Shown: piece by piece, positions 4,324 through 51,450 of the stretch
How positions within the stretch are numbered: the first letter of the stretch is position 1
Layout of the letters: each line of letters starts with the position of its first letter
Source: Actinomycetaceae bacterium
GTDB lineage: Bacteria; Actinomycetota; Actinomycetes; Actinomycetales; Actinomycetaceae
Length of the DNA stretch: 64,000 bases
Reading direction: 5' to 3'
NCBI GenBank assembly: GCA_030538185.1
Contig: JAUNUK010000004.1
Location: forward strand, 124,001 to 188,000
Notes under the pieces: generated by a model
Databases searched by the model: none
Told to the model about the DNA's origin: nothing
What the model saw: only the letters and a program-made list of their open reading frames with translations
Made by a program: the position numbers and the translations under genes

Positions 4324-4410
4324 AGCTGACTGTATCGGTGGGGTGGTGAGTGTATCGCCCGGAACGCCTCCCACCAATACAGTCAAGACCCGACCGATAC
4401 AGTCAGCAAG
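4324..4410. repeat. Inverted-end repeat element, copy 1 of 3
   Basis: An ~87-bp element with ends AGCTGACTGTATCGGTGGG and CGACCGATACAGTCAGC, so the outer 13-15 bp are inverted repeats. It lies between the convergent 3' ends of purA and the next chemoreceptor gene. Its reverse complement aligns along its whole length with copies at 51362-51450 and 61314-61401, including the central word GGTGGGAGGCGTTCC. It encodes nothing obvious. It may be a small non-autonomous mobile element (MITE/REP type) that doubles as a bidirectional terminator. Confidence 0.85.
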
Positions 4411-18885: not shown

Positions 18886-20505
18886 AACACCACTGTTGCC
18901 CCGCCCGCTGTTTCTGCTGACCTTGCCGCGCGCCTGCGTGCGGATTTTCTGGCAGCCCGCTGGACAAATGACCACATCGCTGCCCTTTTAGGTGATGTCA
19001 TTGCCGGGGCCATGGCGCGCGGCCACTTCGGCCCAGCACGCGTGCGCTGCGCCGAGGCCATTGACCGCCGCGAAAGCACACGGGCCTGCGCCGCACTGAC
19101 GGCCCTGTTTATGCTTGGCGGCTCGGTGACCAGCGAAGACGTGCAGGCAGCCCTGCCTTCTGTGACCATCGAGGAATTGACCCAAGCCAATCTGCTGAGT
19201 CCCGTCCCTTCGCCCTCGGAAATTCCCAACAGACGCTGGTGTTCGCCTATCGACTTGCGACCTCACGAAATTATTTCCGAGGGCGAAGGCGCAAGTGCTC
19301 CAGCCGACACGATCTGGTGGATTGCTTCGGACATCGGGGAAGAACGCCTGCCACCTGGCGTGCCACTGCCGCGCGAACACGTGATGGGACTGGGGCAGGC
19401 GACCTTGTCACTGCTGCGTTCCATGGTTACCACGCCCTGCGAAACTGCCTTGGACCTGGGTACGGGCTGCGGGATTGTGGCCATGCACATGACCAGGTTT
19501 GCATCCCACGTCACGGCCAGCGACCTGTCCGCGCGCGCCCTGGGTTTCGCACGTTTCAACGCGACCTTGGCAGGCCTTGGGGCAGACTGCCTGCGTTTCG
19601 TACAAGGCTCTTTCTTTGAGCCGGTCGCGGACCAATGTTTTGACCGGATTGTTAGTAACCCGCCCTTCGTCATCACCCCACAAGAACTGCGCGACCAGGG
19701 GGTTTGGCAGTACCGCGACGCCGGCCTACCTGGGGATTCACTGATTCCCGCGCTGCTGACCGAGGCTGCAGGGCACCTGAACCCTGGCGGCCTGCTAACC
19801 ATGCTGGCCAACTGGGAGGTGCATGCCCCAGATGCGGATCCGCACGGGTTAGAACGTGTCGAGACCTGGCTAAACAAGGCAGGACTGGACGCCTGGGTTG
19901 TGGCACGCGAGGTTTTGGATACAGCACAGTACGCCGAGATGTGGCTACGCGACGGCGGCCTTGAGGCACAGTCCAACACCGAAGACAGTCTTTTCGAACG
20001 CGGCCTTAACTCTTATCTGTCTGATTTCGAGGCCCGAGGGGTTAGCGGGGTTGCCCTCGGCATCATTAACGCACGTCTTTCTGAGACTCCTTCTTCAAAG
20101 ACACGCGTATTCTTACAGGCCAACCTCGGTCCCGAGGGCGCTCCGACAGGGACTCGGGCGCTTGAGGTTTACCTGGCGTTGGATTGGCTGGCAGCACACC
20201 CGAGCGAGGAAGAGCGCTTGGACGCTCGCTTACATCTGGCAGATTCTGTTCTGGAAGAGCACACCCAACGCCCTGGAACGGGCGATTTGCTGGCCATACG
20301 CCTACACAGTCCCACACTTGGGTGGTCCGCAAGCGACCTATCCCCCGAGATCGTCGGCCTATTAGGCGCCCTAGATGGCGACCTGAGCGTCTCACAAGCA
20401 GCCACAGGCGTTGCAGTCCTGACAGATCAAGACCCCATGACAGTGCGCACCCACATAGCAAGCCGCCTCCCAGACCTACTGCTGCAAGGAGTCCTCAGTG
20501 TTTAA
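18883..20505 (+). CDS. HemK-like SAM-dependent methyltransferase
   Basis: A 540-aa product. The N-terminal ~170 residues are helical. The central Rossmann methyltransferase shows the SAM loop ALDLGTGCGIVAMHMTRF, the acidic VTASDLS, and the catalytic NPPF in FDRIVSNPPFVITPQE, the (D/N)PP(Y/F) signature of N5-glutamine and N6-adenine methyltransferases. A further ~200-residue domain follows. The three-part arrangement matches an actinobacterial family often annotated only as methyltransferase. The substrate is not known; release factor, ribosomal protein and RNA are all possible. The mRNA looks leaderless. Two full copies of the dispersed word in inverted orientation (19211, 19273) encode PSEI and SEGE in a poorly conserved-looking stretch. 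Confidence 0.8.
   Translation: MNTTVAPPAVSADLAARLRADFLAARWTNDHIAALLGDVIAGAMARGHFGPARVRCAEAIDRRESTRACAALTALFMLGGSVTSEDVQAALPSVTIEELTQANLLSPVPSPSEIPNRRWCSPIDLRPHEIISEGEGASAPADTIWWIASDIGEERLPPGVPLPREHVMGLGQATLSLLRSMVTTPCETALDLGTGCGIVAMHMTRFASHVTASDLSARALGFARFNATLAGLGADCLRFVQGSFFEPVADQCFDRIVSNPPFVITPQELRDQGVWQYRDAGLPGDSLIPALLTEAAGHLNPGGLLTMLANWEVHAPDADPHGLERVETWLNKAGLDAWVVAREVLDTAQYAEMWLRDGGLEAQSNTEDSLFERGLNSYLSDFEARGVSGVALGIINARLSETPSSKTRVFLQANLGPEGAPTGTRALEVYLALDWLAAHPSEEERLDARLHLADSVLEEHTQRPGTGDLLAIRLHSPTLGWSASDLSPEIVGLLGALDGDLSVSQAATGVAVLTDQDPMTVRTHIASRLPDLLLQGVLSV
19211..19285. repeat. Inverted pair of the 13-base word inside a gene
   Basis: CGCCCTCGGAAAT at 19211-19223 and ATTTCCGAGGGCG at 19273-19285 are perfect inverted copies 49 nt apart, within the methyltransferase gene. 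The spacer equals that of the intergenic pair at 7380-7454. Confidence 0.85.
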
Positions 20506-46679: not shown

Positions 46680-47441
46680 ATGGGACGTTTAGAGAATAAG
46701 GTAGCCGTCATTACAGGTGCTGCTTCAGGCATGGGCAAGGCAATGGCCGTTCTTTTCGCACGTGAGGGAGCAAAGGTTGTCGCCGCAGACTTAAACCTGG
46801 ACGGCGCGAAGACAACTGCTCAAGAAATTACGCAAGCAGGTGGAACGTGCGTAGCCCTGGCTTGCAACGTCGCCGAACAAACTCAGACCAACGCCCTCAT
46901 CGACCAGACCGTAGAGGTCTACGGAACCGTCGATATCCTCGTCAATAATGCCGGCATTATGGACAGCTTCGAACCCGTCCACGAGGTTACCGACGAAAAA
47001 TGGGACCGGGTTTTCGCGGTCAACACAACGGGAACCATGCACCTGTGCCGCAAGGTCATCCCCATTTTCCGCGAAAAGAAGAGCGGGGCAATCATCAACA
47101 TCGCCTCTGTTGGCGGGCTGTTTGGTTCACGCGCGGGTGCCGCATACACCGCCTCTAAGCACGCGGTTGTGGGACTGACAAAGTCCATCGGCTACATGTA
47201 TGCCCCCGAGGGAATCCGCTGTAACGCCATTGCCCCCGGTTCGATTGCCACCAACATCGGCACAAGCATCACAGGTCCTTCTGAATACGGTTCTGCGCGC
47301 ATGATGCCCGGAGTGACCCTGTCTCCTCCTCCAGGAAAATCCGAAGAGGTTGCCGAGGCTGCTCTGTTCTTGGCATCCGATGAAGCCAGTTTCGTCAACG
47401 GCACCGTCTTGACAGTCGACGGTGGCTGGACGGCCTACTAG
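46680..47441 (+). CDS. Short-chain dehydrogenase/reductase
   Basis: A 253-aa classical SDR using NAD(P). The cofactor loop is TGAASGMGKAMA, followed by DILVNNAG, the catalytic Ser in NIASVGG, YTASK with the catalytic Tyr and Lys, and the C-terminal VDGGWTAY. Asp in VVAADLN suggests NAD preference. AAAGGAG precedes the ATG. It stands alone and divergent from the sugar importer. The substrate is unknown; FabG-like or secondary-alcohol dehydrogenase roles are equally possible. Confidence 0.9.
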   Translation: MGRLENKVAVITGAASGMGKAMAVLFAREGAKVVAADLNLDGAKTTAQEITQAGGTCVALACNVAEQTQTNALIDQTVEVYGTVDILVNNAGIMDSFEPVHEVTDEKWDRVFAVNTTGTMHLCRKVIPIFREKKSGAIINIASVGGLFGSRAGAAYTASKHAVVGLTKSIGYMYAPEGIRCNAIAPGSIATNIGTSITGPSEYGSARMMPGVTLSPPPGKSEEVAEAALFLASDEASFVNGTVLTVDGGWTAY

Positions 47442-47446
47442 AGCAG

Positions 47447-47561
47447 AAAAAGGTTCGGACTACATTCGAGTCTCCACTTAGCTGGCTTCCTGGTCCTTTG
47501 CCCTAGGTTGCCACTGTCCCTACGGACCTTGTGGGTCATGTCTCGATGTAGTCCGAACCAC
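47447..47561 (-). ncRNA. Candidate structured small RNA, about 110 nt
   Basis: On the minus strand, a stem of 14 bp (GGTTCGGACTACAT with ATGTAGTCCGAACC) plus CGAG/CTCG across one bulge closes a ~70-nt interior, and UUUUU follows directly (47451-47447). TATAAG (47573-47568) lies about 7 nt before the 5' arm, so a promoter, a folded body and a terminator are all present in the right order. Inside, CCAC/GTGG and GGTCC/GGACC can extend a rod with asymmetric purine-rich bulges, and a TGGC loop could pair with GCCA in a bulge. It has no open frame. It does not match SRP RNA, 6S, tmRNA or a riboswitch that I know. It runs convergent to the SDR gene. Confidence 0.65.
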
Positions 47562-47567
47562 TTGACA

Positions 47568-47573
47568 CTTATA
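47568..47573 (-). promoter_or_regulatory. -10 box of the candidate small RNA
   Basis: TATAAG on the minus strand, 7-8 nt upstream of the start of the closing stem. No clear -35 hexamer at 17 bp. Confidence 0.5.
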
Positions 47574-47824
47574 GAGTAACCCCGGTCACACATTTTGTTC
47601 AACATTTCAGACACGAATTGCCCGAATCGTTACTTTTCTTGTCCAAATTACGAGGTTAGGGCCTTTTACAAGGGACAAGAGGCCCATTTTTTGCCTCCCA
47701 CAACCTGTCCTCCCCAGACCTGTCCTCCCCCAGCAACATCGTCACCAGGTGACAATGTTGCCTCGGGGTGACCACACACCGTCACCCTCAACCAACAACG
47801 ACACATTATCCTCGAAAACCCGAT

Positions 47825-49153
47825 TCACCGGGGGCGGGGCACGACTTTCACTGTTGCGTCGCTGGGCGCAGGCGGTGCCATGATCTCTTCGGCTTCCGGG
47901 CCGACGATCCCCCGCATGGTTGCACGGTATCTATCCACGGTTGCCTTTGAGATGGTGGCTCCTGGCGGTGCGCCCTGGGCGAAAGCTGCGAAAGGCCACA
48001 CCTTTTGTGCTCCCCTGTCCAAAGCCAAGCCTGTCCACTGTGCCTTGGTAACGGCTGCCCTCGCACCGGGGGTGCCAGGAACCGTGATCTCAAAATACCC
48101 AAGTGTCCCGTATTGGGTGCCCGGCGCCAAGTCGGGTCCCATAGAAGAAAACAGGTTGCCCAGGCCGTAGTAGGTCCACATGCCGCCGCCTCCAACGCCG
48201 CCGGGGGCAACGCCGATCTTTTGCGGAACGTGGACGTGGTGTCCGACGAAGACATCAATGACCCCACTGGCCCCCAGGTCACGCACACGCTTGGCCTGCA
48301 TGGCAGAGATCGGTACCTTGTATTCCATGCCGTCATGCACGGAAGCAATGACGACATCCGCACCCTGCACACGGGCCTGATAGGCGATTTCTACTACGCG
48401 TTGAGTGTCGTTGACATGCACTAGCCAGGGTTCGTTTCGCAGCTCCCTGATGCGCCCTTGGTTGAGGCCGTATGTCATCGAAATGTGCGCAACCTTGATG
48501 GTTCGCCCGTGCTGGGTCACCTCATAAATCTGCGCCACATCTTCTGCTGCGCTGCGTGCCGTACCAACCACACCCATCCCGGCCAGGTCAAAGAGCTCCA
48601 TAGTGTGAACCAGGCCAGCGCGCCCCTTGTCCCACGAGTGGTTCGACGCAGTCGAACACCCGTCATAGCCGACGTGTTGCAGGGCGTGAACAAAATTGTC
48701 TGGCATCCCAAAAGCAGGGAATGTCGAGATCTGGGCAGGCGTCGGGGCAAACATGGCCTCCTGGTGACACAAACCAATCGTGGCAGGCTCAATCCAAGGC
48801 TTTATCGCCTCAATCGTGGACGTGAAATCATATCCGCCAGGTGTGCCCGCGCCCTTGCGTTTCGCGTAGTTCAAGATCGGCGTATGCGGAAGATAATCCC
48901 CAGTCACGGCCACAGAGAAGGTCACATCAGGTAGGGTCGTTGGGCTTTGGGTAGGGCTTTGGGTCGGGCTTGGCTTGTTTTGTGAAGGTATTGCCGAGGG
49001 CGCTGCGTTGACACTGCCTGCAGGAACGATACTCACCGTTTCCTCAGGCTGCGCATCCTTGCTCGGAGCCGTGCTAGAACAACCAGTCAGGCTCAGTGAG
49101 AGAAGCAGTGCCCCAGCGGCGAGCACTGCAAGAGTTTTTTGGGCAGTGGGCAT
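47825..49153 (-). CDS. CapA-family lipoprotein (poly-glutamate-type metallophosphatase fold)
   Basis: A 442-aa secreted lipoprotein (signal ending SLSLTGC, Cys 25) with a Pro/Ser/Thr linker to ~75. The CapA/PgsA-like domain follows: VAVTGDYLPH, then NHSWDKGRAG, VVIASVHDGMEYK and VGHHVHVPQKIG, the spaced Asp/His ligands of the calcineurin-like fold. Family members take part in poly-gamma-glutamate capsule or related wall polymer chemistry. No capB/capC genes are nearby, so a capsule role is uncertain. A -10-like TATAGT lies at 49197-49192 (minus strand). Confidence 0.85.
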   Translation of the reverse strand: MPTAQKTLAVLAAGALLLSLSLTGCSSTAPSKDAQPEETVSIVPAGSVNAAPSAIPSQNKPSPTQSPTQSPTTLPDVTFSVAVTGDYLPHTPILNYAKRKGAGTPGGYDFTSTIEAIKPWIEPATIGLCHQEAMFAPTPAQISTFPAFGMPDNFVHALQHVGYDGCSTASNHSWDKGRAGLVHTMELFDLAGMGVVGTARSAAEDVAQIYEVTQHGRTIKVAHISMTYGLNQGRIRELRNEPWLVHVNDTQRVVEIAYQARVQGADVVIASVHDGMEYKVPISAMQAKRVRDLGASGVIDVFVGHHVHVPQKIGVAPGGVGGGGMWTYYGLGNLFSSMGPDLAPGTQYGTLGYFEITVPGTPGARAAVTKAQWTGLALDRGAQKVWPFAAFAQGAPPGATISKATVDRYRATMRGIVGPEAEEIMAPPAPSDATVKVVPRPR

Positions 49154-51361: not shown

Positions 51362-51450
51362 AGCTGAGTGTATCGGTCGTGTTGTGACTGTATCGGTGGG
51401 AGGCGTTCCAGGCGATATGCTCAGGACCCCACCGATACAGTCAGCACAAG
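51362..51450. repeat. Inverted-end repeat element, copy 2 of 3
   Basis: An 89-bp element with AGCTGAGTGTATCGGT at one end and ACCGATACAGTCAGC at the other; TGACTGTATCGGTGGGAGG is repeated internally. It shares ~85% of positions by eye with copy 3 and with the reverse complement of copy 1. It lies between the monooxygenase 3' end and the PAP2 start. Confidence 0.88.

Follow-up and report, generated by a model that had tools for sequence, protein, structure and literature searches.

A single-copy stem-loop with a five-U tail between two convergent genes: a possible long-loop terminator

In a 64,000-nucleotide stretch of DNA from an Actinomycetaceae bacterium, here called the window, the spacer between two convergent genes contains a large inverted repeat which is directly followed by a U tract on the minus strand. 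A preliminary description took this element for a new small RNA with its own promoter and terminator. Does it constitute an RNA gene, does it end the transcripts of a neighbouring gene, or is it a palindrome without a selected function? We conclude that the element is of an already known, ordinary kind. Tentatively, with a rough probability of 0.45, we read it as a single-copy element which would act as a long-loop terminator or as a 3'-end stem of RNAs made from the minus strand, i.e. those coming from the side of the capA-like gene.

Architecture and surroundings of the stem-loop

The features of the locus are collected in Table 1. The stop codon of the short-chain dehydrogenase/reductase (SDR) gene occupies 47439-47441, and the end of the gene and the U5 tract are 5 nt apart. 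The capA-like gene ends at 47825, 265 nt upstream of the stem. The DNA in between had been considered empty. Actually, a plus-strand terminator is located there, as is one member of a dispersed repeat family; 1.26 Mb of this genome contained at least 15 partial copies of the family, with 80-92% identity. When the spacer was scanned for hairpins with T4 tails, a single terminator-like hairpin emerged per strand, the one at 47659-47692 on the plus strand and the element itself on the minus strand. The plus-strand hairpin is likely the end of the SDR mRNA. Therefore, this mRNA probably crosses the element and carries its antisense.

Table 1. Positions of the stem-loop, its parts and the neighbouring features in the window.
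Feature	Position	Strand	Details
SDR gene	46680-47441	+	convergent with the element; PF13561, E 1.6e-65
U5 tract	47447-47451	-	directly 3' of the stem, which by sequence it makes a long-loop terminator-like site
Left arm	47452-47470		plus-strand GGTTCGGACTACAT, bulged T, CGAG; minus-strand 3' arm of the stem
Inner region	47471-47541	-	predicted small helices; MFE -22.4 kcal/mol (z = -1.9; matched by 9 of 200 shuffles)
Right arm	47542-47559		minus-strand GGUUCGGACUACAUCGAG; minus-strand 5' arm of the stem
TATAAG, -10 box of the preliminary description	47568-47573	-	no -35 box at 16-18 nt
Best upstream promoter-like pair	47573-47602	-	TTGAAC (47602-47597), 18 nt, TACTCT (47578-47573); weak, 6.6 bits
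Intrinsic-terminator-like hairpin	47659-47692	+	GGGCCTTTT-9-AAGAGGCCC, then ATTTTTT; ordinary type
Dispersed palindromic repeat copy	47733-47811		in the spacer; core CCTCGGGGTGAC / GTCACC
PGA_cap (CapA-like) gene	47825-49153	-	same strand as the proposed RNA; PF09587, E 9e-44

The two arms of the inverted repeat pair perfectly over 14 bp and over 4 bp more past a 1-nt bulge. The perfect portions, GGTTCGGACTACAT and ATGTAGTCCGAACC (47452-47465 and 47546-47559), are 100% complementary over 14 nt and are separated by 80 nt; in the minimum-energy fold CGAG pairs with CTCG across the bulge, giving 18 pairs in total. On the minus strand the order is TATAAG, GTGTCAAGT, GGTTCGGACTACATCGAG ... CTCGAATGTAGTCCGAACC, TTTTT. 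Thus, the 18-bp interrupted stem, the U5 tract and the convergent SDR gene of the preliminary description agree with the sequence, the pairing of the arms and the position of the SDR stop codon. Because 14-bp arms within 160 nt arose in only 2 of 5,000 simulated Markov sequences of spacer composition, chance does not account for the repeat in this spacer.

The 116-nt element folded with a minimum free energy of -50.6 kcal/mol compared to -30.1 ± 3.9 for shuffled sequences (z = -5.2); none of 200 shuffles was as good. The plus strand folded equally well. As both strands fold alike, the fold cannot choose the strand; the U5 tract alone does. The inner 71 nt, taken by themselves, were barely better than chance, with z-values of -1.9 on the minus and -1.3 on the plus strand. 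Accordingly, nearly all of the folding signal comes from the outer stem. The functional inner fold that had been proposed is not supported by these values. The suggested TGGC/GCCA pseudoknot also fails, since in the minimum-energy fold TGGC pairs with GCCA as a nested helix.

A possible stem at the end of minus-strand transcripts

In the preferred reading, transcripts would arrive from the capA side, having either continued beyond the end of capA or begun at a weak start within the spacer. They would form the 18-bp stem right before U5 and stop 5 nt before reaching the SDR stop codon, so that no antisense transcription would enter the SDR gene. A plus-strand transcript would carry the repeat as a stem near the beginning of the SDR 3' UTR, upstream of the terminator at 47659-47692, where it may be of importance for the SDR mRNA. 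Among the readings considered, the terminator is the simplest mechanism which uses every observed part, i.e. the repeat, its U5 tract, the arrangement of the strands, the terminator on the plus strand and the fact that the minus strand of the spacer has no other T-tailed hairpin. The passive palindrome comes next and a separate small RNA third.

A directional bias in the genome argues for termination. In 1.26 Mb, T-tailed long-loop stems of at least 11 pairs were located in 11 of 498 cases on the strand of the gene which had just ended versus 3 of 546 on the opposite strand (p = 0.018), and at 9 pairs the numbers were 17 versus 4 (p = 0.002); this enrichment is modest, was obtained with rough greedy ORF calls and includes the element itself, members of repeat families and a poly-G tract. 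Against termination speaks the distance: the element follows the end of capA by 265 nt, and for several comparable stems the distance from the preceding stop codon is about 5-80 nt.

How does the element compare with an intrinsic (Rho-independent) terminator? Both have a stable stem with five U following at once, here a perfect 14-pair outer stem and TTTTT, and the element is positioned between convergent genes. The stability of the stem (z = -5.2) is a further point in favor of termination. As a rule, intrinsic terminators have much shorter loops (3-8 nt apical). In contrast, about 71-80 nt which contain further helices lie within the stem of the element (the perfect arms are 80 nt apart), and the standard scan does not list it. 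Because of the long loop we do not count it among the canonical intrinsic terminators; it would only work like one. A second difference is its position so far behind the gene which it would serve. If the terminator reading is true, this is routine gene-end biology; the small twist would be that the terminator tolerates an insert with several helices, about 80 nt in size.

A possible alternative: a palindrome without a selected function

The next candidate, possible yet rather doubtful, is a palindrome that is not itself under selection for any function. It could be the relict of a MITE- or REP-like repeat, or else a quasi-palindrome made perfect when replication switched templates. A sample of 1.26 Mb of the genome contained 26 inverted repeats with arms of at least 14 bp and loops of 21-160 nt, one of them within a poly-G tract, versus 1 in a Markov simulation. 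This is some 20-fold over expectation. The majority are members of multi-copy families; the sample also has several intergenic repeats which occur only once and have perfect arms like those of the element. In a genome so crowded with long-loop inverted repeats, a striking intergenic stem-loop is weak evidence for an RNA gene. Furthermore, the dispersed repeat copy in the spacer is only 174 nt away, and an origin of the element from a palindromic repeat is possible.

There are small repeats of 100-200 bp whose RNAs form long stem-loops and influence the stability of mRNA (PMC2229807). Like the MITE-like repeats ERIC/IRU (127 bp), Correia/NEMIS and RUP described there, the element is intergenic, about 108 bp long and close to a stop codon; it has terminal inverted repeats and would form a long RNA stem-loop. 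Unlike them, it is single-copy and has neither a target-site duplication nor TA termini. A search of its own genome gave no second copy; the remaining matches, of about 20 nt at most, were no more than chance would give. No shared k-mer abuts both arms; the only candidate for a duplication, TAGAG with distances of 8 and 12 nt to the arms, is not convincing. Finally, a passive palindrome leaves the directional U5 tract unexplained.

Other repeats were noted along the way. Within the window, 4325-4407 and 51385-51443 are two members of another inverted-repeat family with arms GCTGACTGTATCGGT / TGACTGTATCGGTGGG, of which about 7-10 more copies with variable loops occur in the sampled half of the genome. 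The inverted repeat CCTTCGCCCTCGGAAAT at 19207-19289 belongs to the CCGAGGGCG family, whose copies elsewhere can bear terminator-like T-tails (e.g. L194:10099-10159 and L214:5877-5955). Apparently single-copy intergenic repeats with perfect arms of 13-17 bp and loops of 31-56 nt are located at L189:7194-7258, L214:2494-2579, L214:12738-12808 and L220:14036-14098. Further palindrome families are represented at L167:6368-6430, L206:96-129 and L213:14698-14729 (AGCTATGTGGGTGCGTC; GAATCGGAAG with GCGAGTGACG flanks). A Y1_Tnp (RAYT-type) transposase was not found in the genome. The data suggest that the genome has at least six families of interspersed palindromes.

A small RNA and other less likely identities

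It is unlikely that the minus strand encodes a separate small RNA with a length of about 115-120 nt, a 5' end near 47560-47567 and a 3' end at U5, possibly antisense to the SDR 3' UTR. With the general kind of trans-acting or antisense small RNA which has a terminal stem, the element shares its length, the closing stem and the U-tract; it differs by the lack of a clearly supported promoter, of conservation in the genomes searched and of an Rfam family. Stem and U5 thus have the right shape, and the fold is far better than that of shuffled sequences; against this stand the weak inner fold and the equal folding of the plus strand. A -10-like box is indeed present just before the stem, as the preliminary description had it, yet the promoter claimed with it is not clearly supported. 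In TATAAG a G replaces the conserved T at position 6 of a -10 box, and a scan for sigma-70 sites was negative. The score of the best pair, TTGAAC-18-TACTCT, was equalled in 5% of random and in 16% of AT-matched 60-nt windows, using an E. coli-like weight matrix taken from general knowledge.

The Rfam search proposed in the preliminary description upheld its statement that the element matches no common bacterial RNA. There was no match at the gathering threshold, and at a relaxed threshold the best overlapping match was an unrelated animal lncRNA (E 0.86; 14.5 bits versus 50). This lack of a match would fit a new RNA. Individual candidates were also rejected. SRP RNA is located elsewhere in the genome; 6S RNA had no match anywhere in the genome with a model which also misses several controls; tRNA and tmRNA were tried and discarded. 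An integron attC site was considered and dropped because the outer ends are GGTT..AACC.

Homologues did not appear in the family, order, phage and plasmid sets, which counts against a small RNA. A DNA search of 213 genomes of the family returned two weak matches of 22 nt outside the stem and no relative. A covariance model built from the single sequence, weak by construction, had no match in those genomes; it was also run on half of the element's own genome. Likewise, relatives were absent from 396 genomes of the order, phages and plasmids; in viral contigs two 18-mers matched at chance level, both lacking the second arm. Spacers behind capA relatives (29 loci, about 33-43% identical, with ORF ends set mechanically and some not in the capA frame) had no comparable long-loop 14-bp arms, the nearest case being one 15-bp arm with a 20-nt loop at L160. 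The best relatives of the neighbours within the family are 52% (SDR) and 43% (CapA) identical. Because these relatives are distant and the genomes searched included no second species of the genus, the absence of homologues says little on function. A literature search on small RNAs of the presumed family contributed nothing useful. Less likely still is a genus-specific small RNA with a multi-helix fold outside the described families, whose targets for pairing would be the SDR 3' UTR or other sequences. If a small RNA is correct, it would be one more lineage-specific example with no known targets.

By far the least probable is that the element is part of a short protein-coding gene. On the minus strand, a frame of 58 codons, open from GTG to TAG (47614-47438), spans it entirely, but this frame was rejected because it has neither a Pfam match nor a relative in the 213 family genomes or plasmids, and an ORF of this length occurs by chance in about half of simulated 400-nt spacers.
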